From contig DYKD01000030.1 of assembly GCA_020722765.1 (NCBI GenBank), positions 1 to 32,513 on the forward strand: 32,513 nt of DNA, read 5' to 3'. Of the stretch, positions 3,092-24,395 are shown one piece after another. Every line of letters starts with the position of its first letter. Position 1 is the stretch's first letter. Under the pieces are notes generated by a model that was not told the origin of the DNA, made no database searches, and saw only the letters and a program-made list of their open reading frames with translations. Source of the stretch: Brevinema andersonii (GTDB lineage: Bacteria; Spirochaetota; DYKD01). Both the position numbers and the translations under genes were made by a program.

Positions 3092-3433
3092 TTAGAATGT
3101 ATTGATCGCTTCATCATCCGTGTCATAGATTTCGAACATGTCCAACAGTTCCACTACCATAAATACCTTTTTTACGGATTCAGGCATTTTTACGAGTTTG
3201 ACTTTCCCATTTTTTGCTTTCAATTGGCGTGCCGTGGCGATGAAGATGCGAAGCCCAGAGCTGCTGAGATATTCGACGTTTTTAAGGTTGATAATCAGAT
3301 TGATGCGACCCTGTTCAATAAGCTTGTTGATTTCTTCCTCGATTTCCAGGGAATAGTGGATGTCGAGCCTTCCCGTCAGCGAGATGATGGTAACGTGAGG
3401 GGCTTTTTCAGGAATTTGTGTCTGTAACTGCAT
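3092..3433 (-). CDS. STAS-domain anti-sigma factor antagonist (RsbV/SpoIIAA type)
   Basis: This is a single STAS domain of 113 residues, typical for stand-alone antagonists. The core NVEYLSSSGLRIF carries the phospho-acceptor serine (about S58, the residue after the first Ser of SSSG). The start at ATG 3433 is preferred over 3451 because AAGGAG sits directly before it and the upstream gene's stop (TGA 3448-3450) overlaps the earlier ATG. In this family the unphosphorylated protein binds an RsbW-type kinase and releases its target; the PP2C phosphatase reactivates it. It is the last gene of the 6673-3092 operon, 14 bases after the ATPase gene. The target sigma factor is not in the window. Confidence 0.88.
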   Translation of the reverse strand: MQLQTQIPEKAPHVTIISLTGRLDIHYSLEIEEEINKLIEQGRINLIINLKNVEYLSSSGLRIFIATARQLKAKNGKVKLVKMPESVKKVFMVVELLDMFEIYDTDDEAINTF

Positions 3434-3447
3434 TGTATTCTCCTTAT

Positions 3448-3876
3448 TCATTTTTTCAGTTTTTTTGTAAGTATGATGATGTTCTCTTCACAGTCCTTAT
3501 TCTTGAATCGATATTCAACATGATCCATGAACTTATTGACAATGTATAGACCCATGCCGTTTATTTCACGGGTAGCCATCTCTTTTGACAGGATCGGTTT
3601 GTCCACATCTGATGGATTGAATGTGACTCCTTTGTGATGGAAAACAATATGAGCGATAGAATCTGATGTGCTGATTTCAAGACGGATAGGCATTCCGCCT
3701 TTCTTATTATAGGCATGTAAGATGATGTTTGTAGCCACTTCATCAATGGAAATGATGATGTCATCCATGATCGCTTTGTCTTTCACATAGGGAGACATGT
3801 TGTTCTGTACAAAGTCACTCAGATCCTTGAGCTTGGATGTATCACTTGTCATGTCAAAAACAATCTTTTTTTCCAT
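3448..3876 (-). CDS. RsbW-like anti-sigma/serine kinase ATPase domain protein
   Basis: This 142-residue GHKL-fold (HATPase) domain has an N-box IDEVATNIILHAY (E46, N50) and a G2 box NGMGLYIVNKFMDHVEY near residue 106, as in RsbW/SpoIIAB. It would phosphorylate the STAS protein encoded immediately downstream. The oddity is the G1 box. Family members read DxGxxFDP, but here it is FHHKGVTFNP (residues 79-88), so the Asp that contacts adenine is replaced. The kinase may have altered nucleotide binding or act only as a binding partner. The start is ATG 3876, with AGAGG just upstream and right after the upstream stop (3885-3887). A TTG at 3888 is less likely. Confidence 0.85.
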   Translation of the reverse strand: MEKKIVFDMTSDTSKLKDLSDFVQNNMSPYVKDKAIMDDIIISIDEVATNIILHAYNKKGGMPIRLEISTSDSIAHIVFHHKGVTFNPSDVDKPILSKEMATREINGMGLYIVNKFMDHVEYRFKNKDCEENIIILTKKLKK

Positions 3877-3884
3877 TATTCCTC

Positions 3885-6206
3885 TCAATGGAATTTTATA
3901 ATCATCAAAGTCAGATCGTCAAATTGGTGGACGTCGCCACAGAACGATTCAACATCATCCTTGATGTTTTTGATGATCTGTTCTGCTGGCAAGGATCGTG
4001 ATCTCTTGACAGTCTCTATCAGCCGTTCCAACGTGAAATCCTCGTTTTCCTTGTTTATGGCATCTAAGACTCCATCCGTATAAAGGACAATGAAATCTCC
4101 TGGTTTGTAGGATTGTGATACCTGTTGGTATTCCCTGTCAGGTAAAATGCCAAGTGGAATCCCTTTTGATTTTATGAGATTGATCTTATCAGTTGCACTG
4201 TCATAGTATAGCTGTTCATTGTGTCCTGCGCAGCCATAGGAAAAGGAGCTGTTTGAAGTGTCTATAAGCAGGTAGAATAGGGTGACAAACATCCCTTTTC
4301 TGGAGTTGGAAATTATGAAATTATTGGCTTTATCCAGGACCAAGGCTGGATTCCTCTGGGTTTCTGAGACTATGCGCATGGCAGAATGTGACAAGGCCAT
4401 GAAGAGGGCTGCTGGTATGCCTTTACCTGAAACATCAGCGATATAAGCCGCATATTTTCCATCCCCACAGTCAGTAATGTCATAGAAATCGCCGCCAATT
4501 TCCAAAGCAGGAATGCTTGTTGCTGCGATGTCTAGTCCATGGTCTGTTGGGAATGATGATGGCAGGATGCTTTGTTGGATTTTGTTGGCAACTTCCAATT
4601 CTCTTTCAATGCGTTGTTTGTCAATGAGTTCTTCATAAAACAGGGCATTTTCATAAGTTTCACTGATCTGCATGGCTATGGTTTCAATAGTCTGGAGGTC
4701 TTCATTATCAAACGGCAAACCGTTTTTCTTGTCTGCAAGATTGATGATTCCGATAATCTTCTGTTTGACGCGTAAGGGAACACATAAAAAGGATTTGGTT
4801 TTGTACCTGAATCTTTTATAAGCGCCGTATTTTTTTGTGGCTGTCATGTCTTCAACTAAAATAGGGTTGCCTGAAAGGAAAATATGCCCCATAATCTTAC
4901 CGCTTGGGTGAAGCTCATCAAAACTGTCTTTGCTGATTCCTCGGGCATCAACAATGCGGAGTTGACCTGTTTTTTCATCTTTTATGAAAAGTGAGACGCG
5001 TTCAATTCCCAAGGATTCAGCTATGATATCAATGGTTCTGGAAAAAATAGTGTTGATGTCATAATCCATATTCCTTCCAATAAGAAGGGATACTTTGTTG
5101 ATGGCAGTCAGCTCTTTGATCCGTTTTGCGAGGGACTGGTTTGAGGCGCGTAAGCTTTCAATCAGATTCCTGTTTGTTATAGCAATGCCAGCCTGGTCTG
5201 CCATGGATTGAAGGACATGAAGGTCTGTCGCGGAAAATTCCTGATGGTTCAATGAGTTGATCACTTCGAGAACGCCGATGATGTCCCCTTGCACTCTGAT
5301 CGGTACGGCAAGTATGTTTTTGGTTTTCAAAGACGTAAGCTCATCAGCTTTTCTGAAGACTCTGCTGTCGTTTTGGGCGTCATTGATTATGAGCGGTTCC
5401 CCTGATTGTGCTACGATTCCTGCAATCCCTACACCCATGGGAACGCGGATTTCTTTCAGTATTTCACCTTTTCCACTGCTGTTTTCAACAACATTGAAAT
5501 AGAGCTCATCGGTTTTTTTATCAGTCAGGAGAAGGGAACTCCCTTCAGTTGCTAGGACTTCTTTTGCGGAAGCCATGATATAGGATAGGAGGTCTTGGAA
5601 ATTGATGGCTGTGTTTATCTGTTTGTTGATGAGGACAAAGGTTGAAAGTCTTTTGATGTCATCTTCTTTTGACTGGAAGAGAGTGATATTGTCAATCATA
5701 ATGGTTATAGGATCAGCCATGTTCTGCAGAAGCTCCATGTCATCAACAGTGAATTCAGCTTCGGAATGTTTGTCCATGATCTCTATGACACCGTAGATGA
5801 CCTGCTTTGTTTTTAAGGGGACACAAAGTATCCTGGAAGGTATATATTGCAACCTGTTGCCAATGCTTTCGTTGAAGAAGGGGCTTGTTGATGTGTCATT
5901 GATTATGACAGGTTCACCTGTTTGTGCCACTTTGCCAGCAATGCCTTCACCTTTCCTGATGCGGAGATTTTTGAGGGGTTCTGTCCGGTCTCCTCGGACG
6001 ACGTTGAAATCCAGAACATCATGAGAAGAATCAAGCAGAAAAATAGATCCGGCTCTGATATTGAAAAAATCGACAATCAGATCCAATATGTTGTTTAAAG
6101 CCTCATCAAGTCTGATTTCAGACCTGATGAACCTGCTGAGGGAATCATACGCCTGGTTCTTGACTTCTAAAACTTTTGTTCCACGGGTTATAATGGACTC
6201 ATTCAT
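3885..6206 (-). CDS. Triple-GAF PP2C (SpoIIE/RsbU-type) serine phosphatase
   Basis: This 773-residue protein has no membrane span. Three GAF domains lie at about 30-175, 195-345 and 370-525; repeats such as IRKGEGIAGKVAQTGEPVII and VPMGVGIAGIVAQSGEPLII mark the first two. A linker helix follows (IERELEVANKIQQSILPSSF), then a SpoIIE-type PP2C domain to the end. The metal-site motifs are visible: EIGGDFYDI, IADVSGKGIPAALFMA, GCAGHNEQ and VLYTDGVLDA. It should dephosphorylate the STAS antagonist encoded two genes downstream when its GAF domains sense a small ligand or redox state. Its ATG overlaps the stop of the ferritin-like gene (ATGA at 6203-6206), so the two are probably coupled. The GAF ligands are unknown. 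Confidence 0.92.
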   Translation of the reverse strand: MNESIITRGTKVLEVKNQAYDSLSRFIRSEIRLDEALNNILDLIVDFFNIRAGSIFLLDSSHDVLDFNVVRGDRTEPLKNLRIRKGEGIAGKVAQTGEPVIINDTSTSPFFNESIGNRLQYIPSRILCVPLKTKQVIYGVIEIMDKHSEAEFTVDDMELLQNMADPITIMIDNITLFQSKEDDIKRLSTFVLINKQINTAINFQDLLSYIMASAKEVLATEGSSLLLTDKKTDELYFNVVENSSGKGEILKEIRVPMGVGIAGIVAQSGEPLIINDAQNDSRVFRKADELTSLKTKNILAVPIRVQGDIIGVLEVINSLNHQEFSATDLHVLQSMADQAGIAITNRNLIESLRASNQSLAKRIKELTAINKVSLLIGRNMDYDINTIFSRTIDIIAESLGIERVSLFIKDEKTGQLRIVDARGISKDSFDELHPSGKIMGHIFLSGNPILVEDMTATKKYGAYKRFRYKTKSFLCVPLRVKQKIIGIINLADKKNGLPFDNEDLQTIETIAMQISETYENALFYEELIDKQRIERELEVANKIQQSILPSSFPTDHGLDIAATSIPALEIGGDFYDITDCGDGKYAAYIADVSGKGIPAALFMALSHSAMRIVSETQRNPALVLDKANNFIISNSRKGMFVTLFYLLIDTSNSSFSYGCAGHNEQLYYDSATDKINLIKSKGIPLGILPDREYQQVSQSYKPGDFIVLYTDGVLDAINKENEDFTLERLIETVKRSRSLPAEQIIKNIKDDVESFCGDVHQFDDLTLMIIKFH

Positions 6207-6792: not shown

Positions 6793-7707
6793 TCAATATT
6801 TTAAGGATAATCTGCAATCAACTGAAGATGCTGATGCATGGCGTTCTATAAGGGTCTTGATTTGAAGGCTGTCTTTTATAAATCCAGGAATGAGAGAATC
6901 CCTTCTGCCATTAAGGGAAATGGCTGTTTCATAGGCTGTTTGGAAATTCCGAATATAGAAATACAGGAATGCCAAGGACCAAAGTCCTGCGTCCAGGTAA
7001 TCCTTTTTCTCAATCCATTGATAACCTGTATATACGCTTGCAGCTCCTGCTATGAAAGTGGCTGTGCCTTCCAATGGCTTCCCTGCATACAAGATCCCGA
7101 TGCCTGGTATGATAGATAACCCAAGTGCAATATTTGGATTTCTATATTTTGTTTTTGTCCATGTATCTAGTATTTTTTTCACTTGTACTGTGGTTTCTAG
7201 TATAAGGGGATCGGATGAATATGAGGTGGCTTGTAGCAGTTCTTTAGATGCGGGATAGATTCCGAGTTGTTGGTATGAAATGGCAAGAAATATTTTGCCT
7301 GCATCAGTCTTGGAATCATTGGTTTCAGCTTTCATGAACATTTCCATGTAGCGTTTGCTTGTCACCCAGTCATTTTCTTTCAAAGCCGCTGCTCCAGCTA
7401 TGAAATACAGTTCTCGTGAGTCTGCTGGTTGTTTGAGGAACATCATTTTGAGCTGCGGATACTGGCCTGCCATAAGCAATGTCCTGGCCAAGCGAATACG
7501 AAGTTCTGGAGAAGCTGACTTTTCCGGAAAGAAATAGGTGATGTACTTATATTCGGAATAGGCCCTGAAATAATCGCCTTCTTCATATAAGGAGTCTGCA
7601 TAGAGAAGCCGATCAGAAAAATTATTGGGATCTGCATGAAGGCTGAAGTTACAACTTGTAAAAAGAAGAATCAGGAAGAAGGGAAAGGCTTCCCGAAGTG
7701 ATTTCAG
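6793..7707 (-). CDS. Exported/lipoprotein TPR-like protein with C-terminal DUF5683-like membrane module; probable CTG start
   Basis: The frame is open from 7707 and encodes 304 residues. No ATG, GTG or TTG gives a signal peptide, but CTG at 7705-7707 does (MKSLREAFPFFLILLFTSC). It lies seven bases after a strong GGAGG and overlaps the TGA of the upstream gene (CTGA). FTSC is a loose lipobox. Residues of about 30-170 look like helical repeats (LYADSLYEEGDYFRAYSEYK; AISYQQLG). A C-terminal membrane part follows, with SIIPGIGILYAGK and several hydrophobic segments, as in DUF5683 proteins. Starting at TTG 7491 would discard the signal peptide and part of the repeat domain. It is the last gene of the nine-gene envelope operon. 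The function is unknown. Confidence 0.7.
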   Translation of the reverse strand: MKSLREAFPFFLILLFTSCNFSLHADPNNFSDRLLYADSLYEEGDYFRAYSEYKYITYFFPEKSASPELRIRLARTLLMAGQYPQLKMMFLKQPADSRELYFIAGAAALKENDWVTSKRYMEMFMKAETNDSKTDAGKIFLAISYQQLGIYPASKELLQATSYSSDPLILETTVQVKKILDTWTKTKYRNPNIALGLSIIPGIGILYAGKPLEGTATFIAGAASVYTGYQWIEKKDYLDAGLWSLAFLYFYIRNFQTAYETAISLNGRRDSLIPGFIKDSLQIKTLIERHASASSVDCRLSLKY

Positions 7708-8462
7708 AAGCTTCCTCCGACGGCAAGATAGATGGTGTTAAGTACGCGATATTTATAAGGCCACCCTTCACCTGTTGTCACCTTGTTTGAATAAGTGAAG
7801 CCGGATCTGTCATATCCTATGCGTGCGTAGAAGTTAGAATAGTGGTATTCCCCGAAAGCATGGAAGTATGTTTCTGATCGGTTTTCATTCCAAAGTTTGT
7901 CTGTCAATTTGCCAAGAAGAGGATATTTGTATTCCAGACCAACCTTAAAATCCGATATTTTCATGTCTGTACGAAGTGCCAGTCTGAGGAACGTATACAT
8001 ATAGTCAGTTGTCGGTTCGGTGAATTCTGTGCCAGCGCTGATATCGTTATAATGTGCGAATTTAACATCAATACCAGGCATGACTCTTATTCTGTCTTTG
8101 ATTGTGATAGGCACATATTCTGTGAATGAGAAACTCCATGCACGTGCATAGAACAGTCTGTTTGTCAGTTCCGTATTCGTTATGGTGCCATTGATGAAAT
8201 GTTTTGAATTTGTGTCAGCAACCCATAAGCTGAGATTGAAGATGGAAAGGAATATGTCTGACTTGTATCCGATATTAATATCAACACTTGGCGCTATATA
8301 GAGATGTGTTACATTGGACTGTTTCAATGTGTTTGACAGTTTCACGGTATGTGTCGAGTATCCCGCACGGATATCGAAAAAACCGTTTGCTGAGAGGGGA
8401 GCTGCTATGGCGCAAAGAAACAACAGGGTAATGAGTATGTTTTTAAGGTTTGTATGTCGCAA
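7704..8462 (-). CDS. Outer-membrane beta-barrel protein
   Basis: This 252-residue protein has a signal peptide (LKNILITLLFLCAIAAPLSA). Alternating, aromatic-rich strands typical of small barrels follow, ending in IYLAVGGSF with a C-terminal Phe, as recognised by the BAM complex. The TTG at 8460-8462 is preferred as start: AAAGGA lies about eight bases upstream, and the longer reading from 8507 adds a Gln-rich stretch before the signal. It overlaps the end of the upstream lipoprotein gene by 20 bases. No specific transport family is recognised. Confidence 0.75.
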   Translation of the reverse strand: MRHTNLKNILITLLFLCAIAAPLSANGFFDIRAGYSTHTVKLSNTLKQSNVTHLYIAPSVDINIGYKSDIFLSIFNLSLWVADTNSKHFINGTITNTELTNRLFYARAWSFSFTEYVPITIKDRIRVMPGIDVKFAHYNDISAGTEFTEPTTDYMYTFLRLALRTDMKISDFKVGLEYKYPLLGKLTDKLWNENRSETYFHAFGEYHYSNFYARIGYDRSGFTYSNKVTTGEGWPYKYRVLNTIYLAVGGSF

Positions 8463-8874
8463 TGGTGCTTCCTTTTGCTGCTGTTGCTGTCCTGTAAATA
8501 ACAGCAAAATAGTTTGGGATTGTCATGTTGAAACCATTTGTCTGCTTTCTGACAGTATTGATGTTCATGTCTTTTATGTTTGTCATTGTCAAGATGGATT
8601 TCAGGTTTGACGAAGTCATGTAGTTTTTCACTGCAGTCATCATGTCTTCAGCTACAGCAGAAGTTATGACTTTATAGGACACTGTCCCTGAGTCCAATGT
8701 GGATGTACTCCAGATAAGCTGGAACTTGTTGGAGACAAGCGAGACAGAACACAGTTGGTCAGAAAAAGCCGGATCAAAAGGATTTGTATGTTCTGGTGCA
8801 GGGAAAAAGAAACAGGCTGTCATTGTGAGCATGAGAACAGGTAGGATGACAAGTTGTATTTTTTGTTTTACCAT
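8443..8874 (-). CDS. Small lipoprotein with an NPFDP motif
   Basis: This 143-residue lipoprotein has a clear signal and lipobox (VLMLTMTAC, Cys 21), followed closely by HTNPFDP. In several diderm phyla that tail is common just after the lipid anchor of Fn3-like lipoproteins. The remainder (KFQLIWSTSTLDSGTVSYKV) could be one fibronectin-III-like beta sandwich. Its ATG overlaps the stop of the DUF5683-like gene before it (8868-8874). The function is unknown; a role anchoring or assisting the barrel encoded next is possible from position alone. Confidence 0.75.
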   Translation of the reverse strand: MVKQKIQLVILPVLMLTMTACFFFPAPEHTNPFDPAFSDQLCSVSLVSNKFQLIWSTSTLDSGTVSYKVITSAVAEDMMTAVKNYMTSSNLKSILTMTNIKDMNINTVRKQTNGFNMTIPNYFAVIYRTATAAKGSTIATYKP

Positions 8875-9674
8875 TTTGGCGCCCAGTTGTCCATTGTGTT
8901 CTGTACAAATGATTTCTGGCGGACATACCAGAAGCTTGGGAAATACTGTTTATGGACTTCATCAAGTTTCAGGTTTGTGATTTCCCTGTTCTCAAAGGCT
9001 TCCCACATTGAGTATAACCAGGAGGAGAATCCGATAGTAAACCAGACCTTTGACTGAAGGTCTGCATTTTTGTAGTCCTCATAAGCCAGTGCAGCACGAG
9101 AAGGGGGAGCCCTGTCATAATCCTGTTTTAGTGCAGTCGCTTCCTTATCGAAGACAAGCCCTTTGTAGAGACTTCCATAGGTAGCTATGAAAAAACAAGT
9201 AGCATTGAAATAGTTCTGGTTGTAAAGCTGTCCCCATCCGGAAATGACGAGGGAGCGCATCATTGAAGATTCTGCGGTTTTCCGCAGTTCACGTACAAAA
9301 AAATCAAGGTCAAAATATTTTACAGTGAAGTCGACTGTTACCAAAGCGACATTTTCGAACGGGTATTCCACTTTCCGTATTTTTGTTCGGATGATCTCAG
9401 CATGAATGTCCTGCATGATCTTGTCTTCTGTGATAACAGCATTTTCAACTTTCTCATAAGAATGTACAAAGGATGTGGCCACTCTCTCTAAGGCTTTCAC
9501 CCTGGCATTGGCAATGGCTTTTTCACGTGCGTCTATTTCGCTTGAACCACGGGCAATTCCGTCTGTAATCCGGATTGTCCGTTTCACTGTGAGGAACTCG
9601 GCTTCATTGCCTGCCTGTGCAGAAATTCCGATTGTCAGAAGGGAAAGGATGATGATGACAGCTTTTCTTGCCAT
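8868..9674 (-). CDS. Exported protein with LPP20/FlgT-like N-terminal domain and DUF5683-like membrane module (copy B)
   Basis: This 268-residue protein has a signal peptide ending near AQA-G. A domain at about 24-125 contains DAREKAIANARVKALERVA, the pattern seen in FlgT/LPP20-like proteins. From about 140 onward it has GWGQLYNQNYFNA and hydrophobic segments, a DUF5683-type module. It is paralogous in layout to the gene just upstream (9676-10404). An AAGGAG ribosome site lies upstream of ATG 9674, and the stop of the previous gene is one base away. The product is probably in the periplasm with its C-terminal part in a membrane. The function is unknown. Confidence 0.75.
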   Translation of the reverse strand: MARKAVIIILSLLTIGISAQAGNEAEFLTVKRTIRITDGIARGSSEIDAREKAIANARVKALERVATSFVHSYEKVENAVITEDKIMQDIHAEIIRTKIRKVEYPFENVALVTVDFTVKYFDLDFFVRELRKTAESSMMRSLVISGWGQLYNQNYFNATCFFIATYGSLYKGLVFDKEATALKQDYDRAPPSRAALAYEDYKNADLQSKVWFTIGFSSWLYSMWEAFENREITNLKLDEVHKQYFPSFWYVRQKSFVQNTMDNWAPKW

Positions 9675-9675
9675 A

Positions 9676-10404
9676 TCAGAATCTCTCCTTCATTAATTCA
9701 AACTTGAATGCATAATGATATATCATTGGCATATTGTTCTGGGCTCTATATGATTCCTTGATCTGTTCCAATCCGAAATTCAGCATCAGTCTGGAAATTC
9801 CTGCATCTGAAACCGCAAGTGTCCAGAATATAAGGGATGGGATCTGATATGTCACAAAGGCAGTATTCACATCATCCTCTGAAACGGCCTTATTCATCTG
9901 GCTGATGTATGTGAGGTAGAACGCCCAATAAAAGACACCATAAAGACCTGCGCTGAAATATTCCCTGTTGTAGAATTGTCCTAAGCCTGGCATCACCATG
10001 GTCCGTAAGGAAGATCCACGCACAGTCTTGTCATATTCTTTCCAGAATTTTGGAAGGTCAAGATACCCCCCAGTAAGCCGGATTTTTACTTTCACTTCGC
10101 CAGGGGAAATGAAATCCTTTTCCAGGATCTTGACATCAAAAACCTGTATGTTCGCTTTTTTCTCTACCCAGTCACTGGAAAGGACTCCGTTGATGGTTGT
10201 TGAACCACCTTTGATCTGTCCTGCAATCAGACCTGCGCCATTTTTTTTCGCTTGCATGATGGCCATTTCAAGCGCTTCTACAGGATCATTATTCGCGCTA
10301 TATCCGGTCTCTTCTACAATGACCACACGTTTGATAGTGAATTCATATGCATGGGTGAATGGCACAAGCAGGAAAAGTGATATGACAACCAGTTTTTTTA
10401 TCAT
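9676..10404 (-). CDS. Exported protein with DUF5683-like membrane module (copy A)
   Basis: This 242-residue protein has a signal peptide (MIKKLVVISLFLLVPFTHA). A roughly 100-residue beta/alpha domain follows with EALEMAIMQAKKNGAGLIAG, a pattern resembling the LPP20/FlgT-like domain of its neighbour. After that come MPGLGQFYNREYFSAG and membrane segments. ATG 10404 is chosen. A GTG three bases earlier (10407) overlaps the upstream stop as GTGA, and GGAAG is placed acceptably for either. It lies in the middle of the envelope operon. The two neighbouring copies may form a hetero-oligomer, which is inference only. Confidence 0.75.
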   Translation of the reverse strand: MIKKLVVISLFLLVPFTHAYEFTIKRVVIVEETGYSANNDPVEALEMAIMQAKKNGAGLIAGQIKGGSTTINGVLSSDWVEKKANIQVFDVKILEKDFISPGEVKVKIRLTGGYLDLPKFWKEYDKTVRGSSLRTMVMPGLGQFYNREYFSAGLYGVFYWAFYLTYISQMNKAVSEDDVNTAFVTYQIPSLIFWTLAVSDAGISRLMLNFGLEQIKESYRAQNNMPMIYHYAFKFELMKERF

Positions 10405-10943
10405 CACCTGTACTTCCCTGAAAAGAGAATGCCGAGTTGGATTTCGCCGACAATCACCCTTGAATTGAAATGGAACAGGGCTCGTGAGTTAAGCACAATC
10501 TTATGAAAATCTATTCCAGCCATGGCATAGTATCCTGCTACAGGATAAGCCTGATTGCCAAACTTAAAATTCAGTCCTGCACCATATTGGAGTTTCAGAA
10601 AGGGGATATAAGTGCGCATCAGCAGTCCTGGATAGACTTGGTAAACAAAATTCTTATTGAGGAATCCACTCAAATCGTTGTCGAAAGAGAAATAGAGGAG
10701 TTTATTAGGTGTATATCCTATGTTATCCTGGGTCAGCCTGAAATAAAGGGCGAATCCTGATCCGAATGCAGGTTTGAACTGAAGTCGGTTGACAGGATTG
10801 TCCCGGGTATTGAGTGAACCATACAGGAAGAAAATCATCTTGTTATGATATTTTGACCCGAACTCGCCTTTTAGCGCTGCGAAGCTTTGGGTGCTGGAAA
10901 CAGCAAGTGAGATGAAAAGTGAAATGAGAATGAACTGCTTCAT
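10404..10943 (-). CDS. Small outer-membrane beta-barrel protein
   Basis: This 179-residue protein has a signal peptide (MKQFILISLFISLAVSSTQSFA) and then about eight amphipathic, aromatic-flanked strands, for example KMIFFLYGSLN and FALYFRLTQDNIGY. The start at ATG 10943 overlaps the previous gene's TGA (ATGA, 10940-10943) and is served by AGGA. The longer reading from 10985 places 14 polar residues before the signal and is unlikely. No named family is recognised. It is similar in size and style to the next gene upstream (10940-11425). Confidence 0.7.
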   Translation of the reverse strand: MKQFILISLFISLAVSSTQSFAALKGEFGSKYHNKMIFFLYGSLNTRDNPVNRLQFKPAFGSGFALYFRLTQDNIGYTPNKLLYFSFDNDLSGFLNKNFVYQVYPGLLMRTYIPFLKLQYGAGLNFKFGNQAYPVAGYYAMAGIDFHKIVLNSRALFHFNSRVIVGEIQLGILFSGKYR

Positions 10944-11425
10944 GTGCGGATTCCTAAGCAGAGAGCCCATCCTTTTGGAAGCCATTCGAATAGGGCACTC
11001 TCCTTGTTGTAAATATATTTCAAATTCAAGTCAATACCCACATTGTCTGTCTGCATCAGTTCAATGCCGATGGTCGTATGGAACATATATCCACGGAGTA
11101 TGAATGGGAAAGATCCTGCTCCCACATAGACGTTGATTTTTTCAGTTATAAGAGGCCTGTATTTGAATGCGAACGTGGAGAAGAAGCTGATGTAATCCTT
11201 GTTTTCTGAGAGAAGGAAGACATCATAGAACTGTGTGCTGAGATAGACGAGGAATTCAGCATCAAAACGTTCAGTATGCGTATAACCACCGATACCGTAG
11301 AGGTTGATAAGCTTCATGTTCATGAATTCCATCCTGAAACCGAAATGTTCAGGGGTGGCATGGAGAACCGGACCTGCGAACAGGATTATCAGGAAAAGCG
11401 ATATGGTCAGGAATCTCTTATTCAT
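10940..11425 (-). CDS. Small outer-membrane beta-barrel protein
   Basis: This 161-residue protein has a signal peptide (MNKRFLTISLFLIILFAG, cleavage near LHA-TP) and alternating strands such as INLYGIGGYTHTERFDAEF and INVYVGAGSFPFILRGYMF. ATG 11425 overlaps the TAA of the PorV-like gene (ATGAATAA) and has GAGG nine bases upstream. TTG 11434 is adjacent to that GAGG and so less likely. It is probably an eight-stranded barrel. No family or ligand is recognised. Confidence 0.7.
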   Translation of the reverse strand: MNKRFLTISLFLIILFAGPVLHATPEHFGFRMEFMNMKLINLYGIGGYTHTERFDAEFLVYLSTQFYDVFLLSENKDYISFFSTFAFKYRPLITEKINVYVGAGSFPFILRGYMFHTTIGIELMQTDNVGIDLNLKYIYNKESALFEWLPKGWALCLGIRT

Positions 11426-12677
11426 TGGTTTCAACCTCTTGGCTGTCTATTTCAGGTTTAGGTTGTTCAGCATTTGTTGCAGATTCGATTGTTTCTATCT
11501 GTGTTTCTTCAGTCGTCTCTTCAATTTTTGTTTCAACAGCAGGAAGCTCTTCTATGTTTTGATTTTCAGCCTCTTCCAGTTTTTTTAGACGTGCTTCTTC
11601 TTTCAAACGTAGTTTCTCTTCGGCCTCTCGTATCCTGCGTTCCTTGGCATCCTGCCGGTTCTTTTTATTGTTTTCCAATTCTGTCTGGATGCTTTTTTCG
11701 CGGGCCATCTTGTCTTCAAAAGAAGTGAAAAGGTAAGGTCTGTTGAAAATCCAGTGAAAGCTCAGTTCATAAAGCATCCCATAAGCCTGTTTCATTTTCG
11801 CAGAAACATCTATGGATAAAGTCCCATATCTTAGCCTGTTGCCTAATCCTGCTCCAAATGTGAAATTATCCCAGTTCGATTCCTTGAAATCATTTCCAAC
11901 ATAACCAGCACGGAGAGCAAGGAAGTAAAGGGGGAAAATCTCATATCCAAGCCTGAATGTATGGCTTTTATCAGCCGTATTCTCAATATCCATGGATAAT
12001 GACATGATGTTTTTGTAACTGAATCCGGTTCCAATCCTGAACTTCATGTCAACACTTGCAGCTTTGAGCGGATAATCAAAGCCGGGAAATATGTTCATGA
12101 TGGAAATGCCAAGACCGCTGTAGTGAAGGTCCGAAATGTATTTTTCCAGGTCATAGATGAAGAGGATTCCAATATCCATTGTAGCTGCATGGGATGTGCT
12201 GTTCATCTCCCTTAGATAAGCATGCCTTAAATTCATTCCATAATAAAACCATTTCCATATATGTCTTCCATAGGAAAGGGAGACAGCCATGTCTTCCAAA
12301 TTCCAGGAAGTTGAAGTCTCTGCTCCATTGACAATCTCTTTGATATCTTCTGTGTGATGATAAAGGAAAGAATAGGCTATGTTTCCGCCCCAGGCTGGGG
12401 CAGTGTATGCCAAATATTCAGTATTGATGGCAGCCAGACCTGGATCATGCATGAGGATGAACTGTCTGTTATAGAGTGTTCCAAGACCAGCAGGGTTATA
12501 CTGGATGGCATTGATGTCATTTGCCAGCCCAGTGAAAGCACCACCCATGGCAGAAGGCCTGACACCAAGTGATTGTGATAGGATAGGGAATCCTGCACAG
12601 TTGTTGATAAAGTATTCAGCAGAGACAAGAACAGGAAGGAGTAGGAGAAGGAGAAGGACGATGAGATTTTTTCTCAT
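11418..12677 (-). CDS. PorV/UPF0164-like outer-membrane barrel with charged coiled-coil C-terminal tail
   Basis: This 419-residue protein has a signal peptide (LIVLLLLLLLPVLVSA). The PorV/UPF0164 signature GVRPSAMGGAFTGLANDINAIQYNPAGLG begins near residue 38, followed by a FadL-like run of beta strands to about 320. UPF0164 proteins are best known in treponemes as FadL-type fatty-acid porins, and PorV-like proteins act elsewhere in secretion. Unusually, after the last strand a tail of roughly 95 residues follows: a Lys/Glu/Arg-rich helix (REAEEKLRLKEEARLKKLEEAE), then a very acidic Glu/Thr-rich end. It overlaps both neighbours (ATGA at 12674-12677; 11418-11425). The tail could reach into the periplasm and bind a partner encoded in the operon. 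Confidence 0.82.
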   Translation of the reverse strand: MRKNLIVLLLLLLLPVLVSAEYFINNCAGFPILSQSLGVRPSAMGGAFTGLANDINAIQYNPAGLGTLYNRQFILMHDPGLAAINTEYLAYTAPAWGGNIAYSFLYHHTEDIKEIVNGAETSTSWNLEDMAVSLSYGRHIWKWFYYGMNLRHAYLREMNSTSHAATMDIGILFIYDLEKYISDLHYSGLGISIMNIFPGFDYPLKAASVDMKFRIGTGFSYKNIMSLSMDIENTADKSHTFRLGYEIFPLYFLALRAGYVGNDFKESNWDNFTFGAGLGNRLRYGTLSIDVSAKMKQAYGMLYELSFHWIFNRPYLFTSFEDKMAREKSIQTELENNKKNRQDAKERRIREAEEKLRLKEEARLKKLEEAENQNIEELPAVETKIEETTEETQIETIESATNAEQPKPEIDSQEVETNE

Positions 12678-13297
12678 GGCTTCACCACCACTTTGCGCGC
12701 TTCACGGGCTTTGCCTGCATTCAGAACCAATATATAAATACCAGGTTGGACCAGGGTTCCGTTGAGATTCTTCAGATCCCATGAGAAGGAGTGAGTGCCT
12801 TCTGGTTTTTGCCCCTGTGGATAAGTAGCAACGATGTCTTTTGCGGAGTTCAGTATTGAAATTTCGGCTTCAGCCTCGTCAGGAAGGGAATACCAGATTT
12901 TTATTGTTTCACCAGCAGAAGCGGAATTGTTTTCAAACCTTATGAGGTTCTTGTATTGGTTTTGTATTGTGGAGATTTCAACTTCAGCGGACGAATCGAT
13001 TTCCGTGCCATTGCTGCTTACAGTTACTAATTTATATCTGTAATAAGTATATGGTTGGACATCTATGTCTGTGTAATTAGTTGAGTTTTTTGTGAGGTTT
13101 GTAAGGATGAAGAATGATGAATGCTGTGTCTTCTTATAAATCCTTAGTTTTTCAACATTTGTATATGTACCATTCGACCATGACAATTCTACATTTGTAC
13201 CAATAAAACGGGCTTTCAAGTTATAAGGGGCATCTGCGTGCAGGAGATTGACCGTAGAAAACGCAAGCACCATAAAGAGAAATGTTTTCTTTATCAT
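12674..13297 (-). CDS. Exported protein with Fn3-like and FlgD-Ig-like domains
   Basis: This 207-residue protein leads the envelope operon. A signal peptide ends near LLHA-DA. Residues of about 24-110 look like a fibronectin-III domain (PYNLKARFIGTNVELSWSNG ... YTYYRYKLVTVSSNG). Residues of about 118-207 look like the FlgD-Ig-like sandwich found at C-termini of surface proteins (AEAEISILNSAKDIVAT; GTHSFSWDLKNLNG; VQPGIYILVL). ATG 13297 is used; a TTG three bases earlier is possible. FlgD-Ig ends often act as sorting signals or adapters in type IX-like systems. Whether that applies here cannot be told from this window. Confidence 0.75.
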   Translation of the reverse strand: MIKKTFLFMVLAFSTVNLLHADAPYNLKARFIGTNVELSWSNGTYTNVEKLRIYKKTQHSSFFILTNLTKNSTNYTDIDVQPYTYYRYKLVTVSSNGTEIDSSAEVEISTIQNQYKNLIRFENNSASAGETIKIWYSLPDEAEAEISILNSAKDIVATYPQGQKPEGTHSFSWDLKNLNGTLVQPGIYILVLNAGKAREARKVVVKP

Positions 13298-13321: not shown

Positions 13322-13350
13322 TTCAAATGACTGATATATTAAAGTATAAT
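13322..13350 (+). promoter_or_regulatory. Candidate promoter for mntP
   Basis: A perfect TATAAT (13345-13350) has TTCAAA (13322-13327, 4/6) 17 bases upstream. Transcription would begin near 13357, leaving about 90 bases of leader before TTG 13448. I see no recognisable manganese (yybP-ykoY) riboswitch in that leader. Confidence 0.5.
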
Positions 13351-13370
13351 CTTGGAGGGGGAATTGTCAA
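13343..13370 (-). promoter_or_regulatory. Sigma70-type promoter for the nine-gene envelope operon
   Basis: On the minus strand a perfect TTGACA (13365-13370) is followed after 16 bases by TATACT (13343-13348). The start would be near 13336, about 40 bases before ATG 13297. Since all nine genes downstream overlap or abut, this is probably the main promoter of the set. Its -10 overlaps the divergent mntP -10. Confidence 0.6.
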
Positions 13371-14109: not shown

Positions 14110-14577
14110 CTAAGTAAGCAATGCCACAGCCCTGCACTCTGCACCTTCCCTTCGTCCAATGAAACCGAGCTTTTCTGTTGTTGTAGCTTTTATGTTTACC
14201 TGGTCAGCTTTTAATCCTGTAGCTTCCATGATATTCTTTTTCATTTTTCCCTTGTAGGGAAATATCTTAGGTTTCTGCATGAGAAGTGTGATGTCTATGT
14301 TGTCTATTTTGAAATCATTTTTTTTCAGTAATCCAACCACTTGTTTTAACAGCAGGATACTGGATATCCCCTTATATTTCTTGTCTGTGTCTGGAAAATG
14401 TTCCCCAATATCTCCAAGCGCTGCGGCTCCCAGCAGTGCGTCACAGACTGAATGCACAAGCACATCCGCATCCGAATGCCCATCAAGTCCTAATGGGGAA
14501 GGGATGTTCACTCCGCCAAGGACAAGCTTTCTGCCTTTCTTAAACCTGTGAAAATCCGTTCCGTATCCTATCCTCAT
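14110..14577 (-). CDS. ispF: 2-C-methyl-D-erythritol 2,4-cyclodiphosphate synthase
   Basis: This 155-residue protein is full length. It catalyses the fifth step of the MEP isoprenoid pathway, cyclising CDP-ME 2-phosphate with loss of CMP. The zinc ligands are visible: D8 and H10 in GTDFHRF, and H42 in the GHSDADVLVHS segment (34-43). The C-terminal ATTTEKLGFIGRREG motif closes the CDP site. The ATG overlaps the ispD stop (ATGA, 14574-14577), so the pair is coupled. In some spirochaetes and alphaproteobacteria the two are fused; here they are separate. It is the last gene of the 14-gene minus-strand run. Confidence 0.96.
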   Translation of the reverse strand: MRIGYGTDFHRFKKGRKLVLGGVNIPSPLGLDGHSDADVLVHSVCDALLGAAALGDIGEHFPDTDKKYKGISSILLLKQVVGLLKKNDFKIDNIDITLLMQKPKIFPYKGKMKKNIMEATGLKADQVNIKATTTEKLGFIGRREGAECRAVALLT

Positions 14578-15260
14578 CTTTTCCTCCCTGCCATTAGTTT
14601 GAAAAGTTCCAAATCTGCAGGATATGTGATCTTGAAATTGAATGGCGTGCTTTCCACCATGACCACCCTTTCCCCTGATAGTTCCATGGCCTGAGCGTCA
14701 TCTGTGAGGTTTTTACCCGTGTTTTTTTCTGATGCTTTCAAAATGTCTTCTGTGAAAAAACATTGGGGTGTCTGCACTTCCCACACGTCCTTTCTATCGA
14801 CTGTTGTTGTGATTTTTCCGTTTTTTACTTTCTTGAGTGTGTTAGATTCCCTCACTCCAGGAACAGCTCCCAGCCCGGGTTTCACATGTTGGATAAGTTT
14901 TTTTATGAGTTCTGTGGTTATGAAAGGCCTTGCTGCGTCATGGATAAGTGTTATGCTTTTAGGATTTTCCATGGCAATGTGGCGTAAACCGATCAGCACG
15001 GACTCCTGTCTTTCTTTTCCACCAGCAAGGCAGGCTGTCACTTTCAGATATTTTGTCATGAGTCTGGAAGCTTTCCTCATGTCATCCTGATGGAGCATGA
15101 TGACAATCTCATCAACAACCGGACATTTCTGGAAAGCGTCCAGCGTCCATTCCAGGATCGGCTTTCCTTTCCATGAAAGGAAAGCCTTGTGTGTTGATGT
15201 TGCCATTCTCTTCCCTGTCCCTGCTGCAGGAATCAAGGCTATGACTTTCTTACTTGGCAA
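14574..15260 (-). CDS. ispD: 2-C-methyl-D-erythritol 4-phosphate cytidylyltransferase
   Basis: This 228-residue GT-A-like nucleotidyltransferase makes CDP-ME in the MEP pathway. The N-terminal signature IPAAGTGKRM (10-19) with K25 binds CTP. IHDAARPF lies in the middle and VWEVQTPQCF near residue 160, both typical of IspD. The start is TTG 15260 (MPSKKVIALIPAAG), which overlaps the end of the PIN-TRAM gene by 11 bases; AGGA precedes it at about eight bases. Together with ispF it supplies isoprenoid precursors, consistent with a non-mevalonate organism. Confidence 0.95.
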   Translation of the reverse strand: MPSKKVIALIPAAGTGKRMATSTHKAFLSWKGKPILEWTLDAFQKCPVVDEIVIMLHQDDMRKASRLMTKYLKVTACLAGGKERQESVLIGLRHIAMENPKSITLIHDAARPFITTELIKKLIQHVKPGLGAVPGVRESNTLKKVKNGKITTTVDRKDVWEVQTPQCFFTEDILKASEKNTGKNLTDDAQAMELSGERVVMVESTPFNFKITYPADLELFKLMAGRKR

Positions 15261-16221
15261 AGATCATCCTGCCCGATTCAGTCTGTATGATGCTCGTCAC
15301 TTCTATGCGCTTTTTCTTGTTCATGAATTTGCTTCCATTCTCGACAACAACCATGGTCCCATCTTCAAGATATCCAATACCTTGGTTGGGATCCTTGCCG
15401 GGTTTCATGATCTGGATTTCAAATTGCTCTCCTGGATGGACAATGGGTTTGAGCATCTCTGCCAGCTTGTTGATGTTGAAGATTTTCACATTGTCGATTT
15501 CAGCGATCTTGTGTAGGTTGAAATCCGTAGTCACGACTGCGCCGTTGATCTCTTTGGCGAGTGCGATGAGCTTCATGTCTACGCCACGGATTTCAGGGTA
15601 GTCCTTTTCCATGATCTGGACAATCAGGTCCTTGCTTTTCTGCATCTTGTTGACGACTTCCATGCCCCTGCGGCCACGTTGGCGTTTCATCCCGTCTGCG
15701 CTGTCTGAAATCAGCTGCAGTTCCCGCAATACGAATTTGGGGATTATGAAGATACCTTCCAGGAAACCTGAAGGGCTTACGTCAAGAATACGTGCATCAA
15801 TGATGGCGCTTGTGTCCAGTATCTTGTACTTGAAGAAGTTGACGTTGTCCTCTTTCACTTCGCCAACCCGTCCTGCACCGAAGTTGATCCTATGTGCGTT
15901 GTCATGGAAGAGTACGAATCCTATGTAAACAAAAAGAAGCATGACACTGGCAGTGTAGGGGAGTAGGGAATGTCCAGGCGTGATGATAAATGCTGTCGTA
16001 TGTGCTACAAGATATCCTGCACCCAGTCCTAAGGCAGCACCAAAAGAACCGAAAAGGACTCCCCACGCGTGGTCTTTCCGGATGTGCGTCGTGTACCAAG
16101 AGAATGAGAACATCAAGATGAATGCGACAAGCGAGATGATGATCCGCGTGACAGCGGGTTCTGCCCTAAGAAGAAAATAGGAAAGGACAGAAATGATGAT
16201 GATAAAAATAAATTTGAACAT
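15250..16221 (-). CDS. YacL-type membrane-anchored PIN-TRAM protein (putative RNase)
   Basis: This 323-residue protein has four membrane helices in the first 105 residues. A PIN nuclease domain follows at about 130-250, with the acidic residues expected for metal binding: D136 and D142 in ILDTSAIIDARILD, D215 in GVDMKLIALA and D233 in VTTDFNLHKIA. A TRAM-like RNA-binding beta domain lies at about 255-323 (EQFEIQIMKPGKDPNQGIGYL). This architecture is YacL/PilT-like, conserved in Firmicutes, spirochaetes and others next to ispD and carD as here. It probably cleaves RNA at the membrane. The substrate is not established from this sequence. Confidence 0.9.
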   Translation of the reverse strand: MFKFIFIIIISVLSYFLLRAEPAVTRIIISLVAFILMFSFSWYTTHIRKDHAWGVLFGSFGAALGLGAGYLVAHTTAFIITPGHSLLPYTASVMLLFVYIGFVLFHDNAHRINFGAGRVGEVKEDNVNFFKYKILDTSAIIDARILDVSPSGFLEGIFIIPKFVLRELQLISDSADGMKRQRGRRGMEVVNKMQKSKDLIVQIMEKDYPEIRGVDMKLIALAKEINGAVVTTDFNLHKIAEIDNVKIFNINKLAEMLKPIVHPGEQFEIQIMKPGKDPNQGIGYLEDGTMVVVENGSKFMNKKKRIEVTSIIQTESGRMIFAK

Positions 16222-16239
16222 AATACCTCTTATGATCCT

Positions 16240-16719
16240 TTATTTAAGTGATTTCATGATGAGCTCAAGAGCTTTCTCTTTTTCTGTCTTTTTGACGATG
16301 GAAATTTCCGTTGTCAGGGAGTTTATGGCATTGTCATAGAGTTTCTTTTCCATGATGGAAAGTTCGTCCTTTTTGTATCTCTTATGAAGGTCCCTGATCA
16401 TCTCTGCAAGATCCCTGTAGTTTCCGGATTTCAGCTTGTCCAGGTTGTTCTGATAACGGAGTTTCCAGTCCTTTTCTGTCTTCTTTTTTGCGCGTTCCTT
16501 GAAAATCTTGAAGACTTTCGTAAGTGTGGCTGGAGACATCAAGGGGCGTAAGCCCATATCTTCGGCGTTTTTCACAGGGATGAGGACATTCATCTTCTTT
16601 TCTTCCATATGAAGGACGTAGTATTTCTGTTTGATGCCTTGTACATCTTTTGATTCGATTTTTTCAATCATGCCAATCCCATTTCCAGGATATACAGCTA
16701 GTTTCTTTATTTTCAACAT
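16240..16719 (-). CDS. CarD/CdnL-family RNA polymerase-binding transcription factor
   Basis: This 159-residue protein opens with the beta-rich RNA-polymerase interaction domain (LAVYPGNGIGMIEKIE ... YYVLHM, about 1-65). A helical DNA-binding domain follows, with KDWKLRYQNNLDKLKSG and RDLAEMIRDLHKRY, the standard CarD_CdnL_TRCF layout and length. CarD proteins bind the beta subunit and stabilise open promoter complexes, especially at rRNA promoters. AGGAG precedes ATG 16719. It lies 20 bases after radA and 18 bases before the PIN-TRAM gene, a grouping also known in spirochaetes and actinobacteria. Confidence 0.93.
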   Translation of the reverse strand: MLKIKKLAVYPGNGIGMIEKIESKDVQGIKQKYYVLHMEEKKMNVLIPVKNAEDMGLRPLMSPATLTKVFKIFKERAKKKTEKDWKLRYQNNLDKLKSGNYRDLAEMIRDLHKRYKKDELSIMEKKLYDNAINSLTTEISIVKKTEKEKALELIMKSLK

Positions 16720-16739
16720 TTATGACTCCTATAATGTTC

Positions 16740-18104
16740 TTATTCGAAAATTTTATTGATTGCTTCGTTGATACTGTTGACTTCCATTATCGTTATGCCT
16801 TCACGGTCCTGTTTTGTGAGTTGTGTCTGTGGTACAATGACCCTTGTGAAACCAAGCTTTTTCGCTTCTCGGATCCGTTGCCCGATCCTTGAAACAGGCC
16901 GGATGTTGCCGTTCAGACCGACTTCTCCTATCATGATAGTATCGGCAGGAATTGGTTTGTTCTTGAAACTCCCTGCTATGGCCATGGCACATGCAAGGTC
17001 CACTGCTGGTTCTGTCACTTTGATTCCGCCTGCAAGTTTCACATAGATTTCCTGGTTTCGCATGTTCAATCCACCTGATTTTTCCATGACTGCAGCAAGA
17101 AGAGAAAGCTTGTTCAGGTCTATCCCTGCGGCCACCCTCCGTGGCATGACCATAGGTGAAAAGACGCTGAGGGCCTGCACCTCTATGATCAGGCATCTTG
17201 AACCTTCCATGATCACGGAGAGGGAAGTGCCAATCGTGTTCTTGTCTCCTGCTTCAAGGAAATAGTCAGATGGATTGTTGATTTCAACCAGCCCTGTATC
17301 CCTCATTTCGAAAACTCCGATTTCTTCAGTTGACCCAAATCTGTTCTTTACTGTGCGAAGAATTCGGAACGCCCCATGCCGTTCGCCTTCAAAATAGAGG
17401 ACGCAGTCCACCATGTGTTCCAGAACCTTGGGACCTGCAATGCTTCCTTCTTTGGTAATGTGGCCGATCAGAAATACAGGAATGCCGTTCTCTTTTGCAA
17501 GGTTGATAAGGATAGCTGTAGATTCCCTGATCTGTCCTGCGCTTCCTGCTGAGCTGCTCATCTCTGGATGCGTCATGGTCTGTACTGAATCAATGATAAG
17601 TATCTCTGGTTTTTCCAGCTCCACTGTTTCCTTAATGCGGATGATGTCCGTCTCGTTTAGCAAAGGCAGATGCTGACTTTTCACTCCCAGCCTGTCAGCA
17701 CGTAACTTGATTTGACCGCAGGATTCCTCTCCAGAAACATAGAGAACCTTGTTTTTGGAGGCCATGCTGTCCGCCATCTGAAGGAGTAATGTTGATTTTC
17801 CAATGCCCGGCTCTCCTGCTATGAGAACCACTTCACCGTGCACAGCGCCACCACCCAGCACCCTGTCAAGTTCGCTGATTCCTGATGAAAGGCGGATGAC
17901 TTTGTCTGAACCCCCGATCGCAGAAAGAGCAACAGGTTTTTTTATGCGGATGTCTGTTGAACTAGATTTTTTCCTGCTCTCTTCACGCACGATCTCTTCA
18001 ACAAACGAATTCCATGCTGAACATTCAGGACATTTGCCAAGCCACTTGGATGATGTATAACCGCAAGTCTGGCAGGCAAATCTTGTTTTTGTCTTTGTTA
18101 CCAT
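16740..18104 (-). CDS. radA: DNA repair ATPase RadA (Sms)
   Basis: This 454-residue protein is the full family length. It has an N-terminal zinc finger with C11, C14, C25 and C28. A RecA-like ATPase has Walker A GEPGIGKST at 97-105 and Walker B ILIIDSVQT. The RadA-specific KNRFGS motif follows, then a Lon-protease-like C-terminal domain (AAVMEKSGGLNMRNQ ... TMIGEVGLNGNIRPV). RadA promotes branch migration in recombination. Its ATG overlaps the end of mlaD by seven bases. Confidence 0.97.
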   Translation of the reverse strand: MVTKTKTRFACQTCGYTSSKWLGKCPECSAWNSFVEEIVREESRKKSSSTDIRIKKPVALSAIGGSDKVIRLSSGISELDRVLGGGAVHGEVVLIAGEPGIGKSTLLLQMADSMASKNKVLYVSGEESCGQIKLRADRLGVKSQHLPLLNETDIIRIKETVELEKPEILIIDSVQTMTHPEMSSSAGSAGQIRESTAILINLAKENGIPVFLIGHITKEGSIAGPKVLEHMVDCVLYFEGERHGAFRILRTVKNRFGSTEEIGVFEMRDTGLVEINNPSDYFLEAGDKNTIGTSLSVIMEGSRCLIIEVQALSVFSPMVMPRRVAAGIDLNKLSLLAAVMEKSGGLNMRNQEIYVKLAGGIKVTEPAVDLACAMAIAGSFKNKPIPADTIMIGEVGLNGNIRPVSRIGQRIREAKKLGFTRVIVPQTQLTKQDREGITIMEVNSINEAINKIFE

Positions 18105-19021
18105 ATCAGGCTTTTCGGGTTCCTTTTTACTTTTTCTGTAAGCACTTCCGTGTTTTCTATTATCTTATCAAGTCTCTTGCCAAGTTTCTTGTCGTAGATA
18201 AGCCTTCCTACAACGCCTTCCTGGTTGCGGATCGCAGCGGTGATGTGCTTGCTGTTTGCAGTCACCTCTTCAAGGTCCTTTGCGGCTTTCTGTAAAGACC
18301 TGGCTGTAATTTGTAGATCAGAGATGCTCTGTGTCAATTTGTCTGAATTCACTGATGTCAGCTTGTCCAGGTTTTTTGCTGAGTGGTCAAGTGATGTGAG
18401 GATCTCTTTCATCTGTATGTTGAAAACCAGAAGTGCGTCTGCTGTTGTCTTGATCGCGCGTTGCACCTCGGGTTCGCTTGTTGATACGGTCTTGTTGAGC
18501 TGGTACATCAGGTCTGATGTGTTGTTGAATAGTGACTGGAATGAACGTTGTATGTCTTCTGTATTCATGGACTCGCCAAAAAGCGAGTTAACAGCATTCC
18601 CCACTTTTATGGAAAGGTTATCCAGAGAGATGGGGCTGATCCCTGTGATAATGGAATTGTTCGTGAGAAAAGTACCGCTCGGTGATTCCACTTCCACATC
18701 TACGTACCTGTCACCCATCAGTGAGGTTGAGCCTATGATAAAACGTGCTTTGCTGTCTATAGGATATTTGTCATCGATCCAGAGTATGGCATTCATCTGG
18801 TTCCCTGCGCGTTTCAGCCCTTTCACATATCCGATCTTAAGGCCTCCTGCCATCTTTACCTGTGATCCAGCCTTCAGGTCTCCTACAAACTTATAAATGA
18901 TATTGACGTTGTAACCACGCAGGATGACCTGGATATTGTTGGTCAAGACCAAAGCAATAAGGAAAAATATGATTGCCAGGAAGGAGAAAATGCCGACTTT
19001 GGCTTCTTTTGAAAGAACCAT
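18098..19021 (-). CDS. mlaD: MCE-domain substrate-binding protein of an Mla-type lipid transporter
   Basis: This 307-residue protein has one N-terminal membrane helix (VGIFSFLAIIFFLIALVLT). A single MCE domain lies at about 38-125 (GDLKAGSQVKMAGGLKIGYVKGL; GSTSLMGDRYVDVEV). A long helical region of about 130-280 includes heptad-like repeats, then a basic C-terminus. This is the periplasm-facing ring subunit that carries phospholipids between the membranes. It is longer than E. coli MlaD because of the helical tail, as in many non-proteobacterial homologues. It forms the third part of mlaE-mlaF-mlaD, 39 bases after mlaF. No mlaC or mlaA is in the window. Confidence 0.9.
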   Translation of the reverse strand: MVLSKEAKVGIFSFLAIIFFLIALVLTNNIQVILRGYNVNIIYKFVGDLKAGSQVKMAGGLKIGYVKGLKRAGNQMNAILWIDDKYPIDSKARFIIGSTSLMGDRYVDVEVESPSGTFLTNNSIITGISPISLDNLSIKVGNAVNSLFGESMNTEDIQRSFQSLFNNTSDLMYQLNKTVSTSEPEVQRAIKTTADALLVFNIQMKEILTSLDHSAKNLDKLTSVNSDKLTQSISDLQITARSLQKAAKDLEEVTANSKHITAAIRNQEGVVGRLIYDKKLGKRLDKIIENTEVLTEKVKRNPKSLIW

Positions 19022-19060
19022 GGTTTCCCTCTCTTTTATTCTTTTATCAAAATGATTTTT

Positions 19061-19798
19061 CTAGAATGACTCATCAAGGTTTCCTTTAAGGAAGTGCATG
19101 ACTATCGGATTCTCAGATGCCTGTATCTCTTCTTTGCTGCCGTAAAAGATGATTTCGCCTTGGTGGAGCATGGCCAGCTTGTCTGCAATCTTGAAGGCTG
19201 ACTGCATGTCATGTGTGACAATGATGGATGTGATGCCAAGTTTTTCGTTGAGGTCTATGATCAGGTTGTTGATCGAGTCTGCTGTGATGGGGTCAAGACC
19301 TGTTGTCGGTTCGTCATAGAGCATGATGCAGGGATCCATGATCAGCGACCTGGCCAAGGCGACGCGTTTCTGCATTCCGCCCGAAAGCTGGTATGGTTTC
19401 AGAGCTTCAATGTTCCTTAAATCTACGGTTTCCAGTTTCGCTTTTACAAGACTGTTTTTTTCTTCTTCACCCAGTTCTGAATACCTGTCTAAAAAGAATC
19501 CTACATTTTCACGGATTGTGAGTGAATCGAACAGTGCTGAGTTCTGGAACAATATGGAAATCCGGATTCCATTCTGGAGAAATGCAAGACGTTCTATTTT
19601 TGAGATGTCTTTGCCATCCACTTCTATGTTTCCAGAATCAGGTTTGTATATGCCTGCAAGATGTTTTAATAGTACGCTTTTCCCACAACCGCTTCTTCCC
19701 AGTATGACAAGCTTCTGTTTGTCCGGAATTTCCAGGTTTATGTTTCTGAGCACGTCGCGTCCGTCATAACTTTTTTTTAATCCGTTGATTTTGATCAT
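19061..19798 (-). CDS. mlaF: ABC transporter ATPase of the Mla-type lipid transporter
   Basis: This 245-residue ATPase has Walker A GRSGCGKS (34-41), the ABC signature LSGGMQKR (138-145) and Walker B leading to YDEPTTGLDP (161-170), followed by the switch His in IIVTHDM. The LSGGMxKR form is characteristic of the Mkl/MlaF group. ATG 19798 is chosen. A longer open frame to 19966 adds 56 Ser/Arg-rich residues that overlap the mlaE coding region and look non-biological. Only one base separates this ATG from the mlaE stop. Confidence 0.94.
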   Translation of the reverse strand: MIKINGLKKSYDGRDVLRNINLEIPDKQKLVILGRSGCGKSVLLKHLAGIYKPDSGNIEVDGKDISKIERLAFLQNGIRISILFQNSALFDSLTIRENVGFFLDRYSELGEEEKNSLVKAKLETVDLRNIEALKPYQLSGGMQKRVALARSLIMDPCIMLYDEPTTGLDPITADSINNLIIDLNEKLGITSIIVTHDMQSAFKIADKLAMLHQGEIIFYGSKEEIQASENPIVMHFLKGNLDESF

Positions 19799-19799
19799 C

Positions 19800-20582: not shown

Positions 20583-20584
20583 TG

Positions 20585-21946: not shown

Positions 21947-21954
21947 GGCGCCTT

Positions 21955-22398: not shown

Positions 22399-22401
22399 TC
22401 A

Positions 22402-23804: not shown

Positions 23805-23836
23805 TGTAGTCTCCTGTTTTGTGTTAATGGAACTGT

Positions 23837-24349: not shown

Positions 24350-24395
24350 CTTTTTTCTCCTTTTTTTCCTTTATATTTTTTGTACTGACTTCTTG

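Follow-up and report, generated by a model that had tools for sequence, protein, structure and literature searches.

What could nine consecutive genes, every one of which seems to encode an exported protein, do together in a spirochaete envelope? The question arises from a stretch of DNA of 32,513 nucleotides, which we call the window. It carries on the minus strand a collinear run of nine genes, named A to I here, that extends from 13297 down to 6793, and each product begins with a hydrophobic export signal. With the most plausible starts (Table 1), the eight junctions are overlaps of 4 to 20 nt, except E-F, which is a gap of one base. An earlier note on this DNA had described nine ORFs for exported proteins with overlapping or one-base-gap junctions, and our gene calls bear this out; the soft spots are the start of H (TTG), which is uncertain, and that of I, where a CTG following GGAGG is needed because no ATG, GTG or TTG lies upstream of the lipoprotein signal. 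From the strict coupling the note had also suggested a fixed stoichiometry. This suggestion is weak, since a neighbouring unrelated gene run (14110-24737) is packed in much the same manner, its genes overlapping or lying a few bases apart; close packing being common in this genome, junction tightness is poor evidence for stoichiometry.

Table 1. Features of the nine-gene operon in the window; gene starts lie at the higher coordinate
Feature	Description	Coordinates	Strand	Start	Evidence
Promoter	Sigma-70-like, TTGACA-16-TATACT, ahead of gene A	13343..13370	-		11/12 consensus matches, the region's best; site count not above that of shuffled sequence
A	207 aa; signal peptide, Fn3, C-terminal FlgD_ig / type-A-like T9SS sorting domain, end ...GIYILVLNAGKAREARKVVVKP	12674..13297	-	ATG	PF13860 3.1e-10; PF00041 8.5e-5; TIGR04183 8.7e-5
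B	419 aa; PorV/UPF0164/FadL-family barrel, NPA motif, charged C-terminal tail	11418..12677	-	ATG	NF033709 1e-27; PF03687 above gathering score
C	Small exported protein, probable 8-stranded barrel	10940..11425	-	ATG	3e-24 to relatives' C profile
D	Exported barrel-like protein	10404..10943	-	ATG	7e-17 to relatives' D profile
E	243 aa; signal peptide, N-terminal domain, DUF5683-like helical region; F paralogue	9676..10407	-	GTG	PF18935 2.5e-5; 8e-59 to relatives
F	268 aa; signal peptide, beta-alpha-beta-beta domain, DUF5683-like helical hairpins	8868..9674	-	ATG	PF18935 6.9e-5; 7e-66 to relatives; predicted model pLDDT 65.6
G	143-aa lipoprotein, HTNPFDP motif, possibly Fn3-like	8443..8874	-	ATG	9e-4 to relatives
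H	Exported beta-rich barrel-like protein	7704..8462	-	TTG	6e-3 to relatives, and position; low-confidence model, 9 strands, pLDDT 49
I	304-aa TPR and DUF5683-like lipoprotein	6793..7707	-	CTG	8e-21 to relatives

The FlgD_ig domain of A scores above its cut-off, and the type IX secretion system (T9SS) sorting-domain model TIGR04183 reaches 22.4 bits against a cut-off of 23. B matches the PorV_fam model NF033709 with 97.7 bits (cut-off 90) and UPF0164 (PF03687) with 23.7 bits (cut-off 21.4), and its hatch motif reads YNPAGLG. The earlier description of A as an Fn3/FlgD-Ig-like protein and of B as a PorV-like barrel is confirmed by these Pfam domains (PF13860, PF00041) and by the PorV_fam score. 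E and F had been called both LPP20/FlgT-like and DUF5683-like: the former has no support from Pfam, where no LPP20 or FlgT match was found for either protein at E<1, and the DUF5683 likeness scores 24.7 bits for E and 23.3 bits for F, below the PF18935 gathering score of 26.7 bits. What fits the LPP20/FlgT-like idea is solely a weak FcpA-related match of F (0.0024) and its predicted beta-alpha-beta-beta domain. The model of F shows, at modest confidence, a signal helix, this domain and long helical hairpins; a fold search with it gave no match below E 0.1 and no significant PDB match, and neither D, H, F, B nor the SprA homologue described below brought up anything useful when searched against PDB sequences. 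No PF18935 match is listed for I in the Pfam search. The lipoboxes read LTMTAC in G and LLFTSC in I, and in the HTNPFDP motif of G the N, P and D are invariant among 11 sequences. C, D and H are named as probable barrels and G as putatively Fn3-like; which membrane would hold the DUF5683-like helices is likewise a matter of prediction.

Elsewhere in the window, a plus-strand gene (25902-27050) encodes a signal peptidase I whose N-terminal part is a DUF6677/DUF5683 membrane region, the same type of domain that E and F contain. Genes for an MCE/MlaD-like protein and an MlaF-like ATPase lie at 18098-19966 on the minus strand, with a possible permease at 19800-20582.

The operon is shared with other Spirochaetota. 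A search of 60 relatives with gene F led to three genomes of family f16; two of them carry B-C-(D)-E-F-G-H-I, arranged and oriented as in the window, and the third (G054) has B-H but no I, and at one locus (L018) gene D had been missed by the simple ORF caller. The earlier note had left it to a neighbourhood survey whether the order is conserved in any relative; B-C-D-E-F-(G-H)-I, eight of the nine genes, keep their order in families f16 and f45 (Turneriella relatives). Profiles built from the relatives without the window sequence rank each of the window genes B to I first among 1050 ORFs (E values for C to I in Table 1), the matches of G and H being weak, yet correctly placed. B is orthologous to the relatives' B (9e-40; the next PorV paralogue reaches 1.6e-14). 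Junctions among the relatives measure 10 nt or less in 81 of 89 cases, in a list that counts two loci twice.

Among 393 Spirochaetota genomes, 13 match the full gene F profile (the window's own family f1, and f16 and f45) and 12 match gene C, whose profile finds matches only in operon-bearing genomes; in the one without C (G114), the contig starts inside gene E. A motif-based scan of the genome collection, by which distant relatives would be missed, returned 11 loci, all within the Spirochaetota operon group by coordinates or record name; two are named Hydrogenedentota and Caldithrix, and their coordinates belong to genomes G163 and G094, both placed in Spirochaetota. The viral contigs searched held no relative. 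The operon is therefore rare, conserved in order and, as far as tested, confined to this group. The literature searched holds no description of it. The earlier view of one operon for exported envelope proteins stands, and C-I would make up an undescribed envelope module of unproven function.

The operon also varies among genomes. Only in the window's lineage, represented by one genome, does A stand ahead of B, and the relatives lack it at this locus; in f16, a longer C-terminal region of B replaces the charged tail, and D is a lipoprotein there and a non-lipoprotein in the window. Between H and I, several relatives' loci carry a YidD-like ORF (TIGR00278 3e-21; for example, L031:6218-6589) whose product has a predicted signal peptide. 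YidD is usually cytoplasmic; the ORF resembles that family (PF01809), and the operon of the window has no counterpart. In the genus g44 (Turneriella), loci reaching the H end stop after H, with neither I nor the YidD-like gene. One relative has, divergent from the operon, a second PorV-like gene and further exported proteins (L033:1432-6153, minus strand). A PD40 and OmpA gene near I in the relatives was considered as a relative of D and dismissed, the apparent likeness being an artefact of iterative assignment.

Is there a secretion pore with which A and B could work? The earlier statement that no SprA is present is right for the window and wrong for the genome, since another contig (L075:13-5928, G000:C333) encodes a SprA/Sov homologue of 1971 aa that matches TIGR04189 in three stretches (E 6e-31), with 106.5 bits, below the equivalog cut-off of 200. 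A profile of SprA relatives found no PDB chain at E<=1; in 90 of the 393 Spirochaetota genomes it found homologues (including L076-L100), mostly of about 1900-2000 aa. About six of these matches are doubtful, namely the weakest, at E 1e-8 to 4e-4, of which two lie in frames interrupted by stops. Outside g44, the genomes of f16 and f45 show a SprA match, and all seven operon-bearing genomes carry SprA. Within g44, the operon is present in six of six genomes and SprA in none, two of these genomes being 99% complete; B-H must therefore be independent of SprA. The joint absence of SprA and I there proves nothing alone, because it is a single phylogenetic event in one clade. Family-level co-occurrence of operon and SprA was set aside as uninformative, most SprA genomes being without the operon. 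STAS/anti-sigma-type regulatory genes lie near the operon at 3092-6206 (minus strand), and in f16 and f45 (L076-L080) a related STAS gene directly adjoins the SprA homologue.

For the other T9SS parts, PorU (C25 sortase, PF01364) gave no match in the window's genome or in f16, and one match in f45 shows that the model can detect it. GldM (TIGR03517) gave none in 15 genomes, and no control genome matched either. The model NF052230 for PorE, a peptidoglycan-binding anchor, which bears on the OmpA/PD40 gene near I in the relatives, was rejected as a T9SS marker: it has many matches per genome with or without SprA, never above the cut-off. With PorU not found and SprA under its equivalog cut-off, we do not class the operon as a T9SS.

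The genome contains about 28 PorV-family ORFs (including L020-L030 and L102-L114). An ORF ending in a type-IX-like C-terminal domain (CTD) directly precedes 19 of the 28, against 5 of 146 background ORFs (Fisher p=2e-14, a value somewhat flattering because the CTD motif was chosen after the pairs had been viewed). Independently of the motif, and in the same direction, 13 of 27 FlgD_ig matches sit 104-174 nt 5' of a PorV-family match on the same strand. CTD similarity also tracks barrel similarity (Mantel r=0.48, p=5e-5, 19 pairs), in a test that takes the genes to be exchangeable and whose value owes something to whole pairs having been duplicated. A and B form such a CTD-PorV pair. Elsewhere in the genome, a single frame of 1132 aa (L111:2504-5902) combines a PorV-family match, several FlgD_ig repeats and an OmpA-like domain.

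It seems to us, tentatively and at somewhat less than an even chance, that A-B is a type-IX-like substrate/shuttle pair heading an outer-membrane-centred assembly in which C-I accompany B. A would cross the inner membrane by Sec and would use the SprA homologue, whose gene lies elsewhere in the genome, to traverse the outer one; its C-terminal FlgD-type domain would be taken up and held outside by its own PorV-family barrel B, in the manner of the SprF/PorP barrels that retain type B cargo in Bacteroidota. The putative barrels C, D and H, the lipoprotein G and the exported proteins E, F and I with their DUF5683-like helices may surround B and tie it to the envelope. From the conserved order, the SprA homologue, the adjacency of FlgD_ig and PorV genes, their co-variation and the type B precedent, we infer this secretion route, the binding of A by B and the contacts of C-I with B. 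Against it stand the absence of A from the relatives' locus and the SprA-less operons of g44, where B-H must act without SprA, as well as the missing PorU, the unmatched GldM (in a search in which no control matched), the low SprA score, and the exchangeability and duplication behind the Mantel value. A single complex of all nine proteins is unproven; genus Turneriella retains B-H but has neither SprA nor A nor I.

This retention in Turneriella favours another explanation, which we hold to be rather doubtful, namely that B-H form a core, built on a FadL-type barrel, for transport or for upkeep of the outer membrane, with uptake of lipids or other hydrophobic compounds, no role in secretion and A as a late addition. 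B does match UPF0164 (PF03687), the family of the Treponema pallidum FadL-like proteins, and the window carries an MCE/MlaF-like lipid ABC transporter. Moreover, three of the five T. pallidum FadL-like proteins, treated as hydrophobic-nutrient importers, have helical C-terminal extensions comparable to the tail of B (PMC8407342). However, B fits the PorV_fam model better than UPF0164, most PorV paralogues in the genome pair with CTD proteins, and Mla-like genes do not adjoin the operon in the relatives examined.

The mix of a PorV barrel, small barrels, a lipoprotein, a TPR protein and proteins with helical segments also resembles the missing trans-envelope part of a divergent T9SS, in which B-I would replace PorK-N, PorL/M, PorP, PorG and PorW. 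The failure to find PorU or GldM (the latter in a search whose control was also without match) and the occurrence of SprA in the operon genomes outside g44, together with the lack of both I and SprA at the g44 loci examined, agree with such a replacement; but no operon is recognisable in at least 75 of the Spirochaetota genomes that bear SprA, g44 keeps B-H without SprA, and the joint loss counts as one event, so that we consider it unlikely. We give slightly less credence to the broader proposal that Spirochaetota possess their own T9SS branch, with a dedicated PorV shuttle for each CTD cargo and with B-I replacing the PorKLMN motor where the operon is present. Nor does it seem probable that nine envelope genes merely share one promoter as a transcription unit of convenience without forming a complex: the general close packing in the window and the coming and going of I, A and the YidD-like gene would suit it, but seven genes keep a constant order over three families at 15-40% identity, and the genome distributions of C and F are essentially equal.

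A 2016 survey found the T9SS confined to Bacteroidetes (PMC4793230), and a 2024 paper reported it in further FCB phyla and stated that its genes are absent elsewhere (PMC11285876); our literature search for T9SS or PorV with Spirochaetes, whose coverage excludes most subscription journals, found nothing contrary to this. A SprA homologue with paired CTD/PorV-type genes in Spirochaetota would extend the T9SS range beyond the FCB group, would reveal that type-A-like signals can follow a one-cargo-one-shuttle layout, and would offer a reading of the Spirochaetota PorV/UPF0164-type barrels other than fatty-acid uptake. The conserved B-H represent seven undescribed envelope families.

Compared with known systems, B has its Pfam family, the NPA motif and a C-terminal extension in common with the T. 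pallidum FadL-like proteins. Those proteins, in contrast, are described as hydrophobic-nutrient importers, in a paper that makes no mention of PorV (PMC8407342). Like the T9SS of Bacteroidota, the window's genome has a SprA homologue, PorV-family barrels and FlgD/Ig-like C-terminal domains; it differs in that PorU was not found, GldM was undetected in a search that had no positive control and SprA lies below the equivalog cut-off, and also in having many PorV-type barrels, each beside one cargo, whereas type A cargo in Bacteroidota shares one PorV. An analogous arrangement is that of type B CTD genes in Flavobacterium, which are directly followed by a dedicated barrel shuttle gene (PMC12618676, PMC9143113). 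Here too the cargo gene directly precedes its own FadL-type barrel gene, but with a FlgD_ig/type-A-like CTD and with a barrel of the PorV family in place of PorP/SprF.
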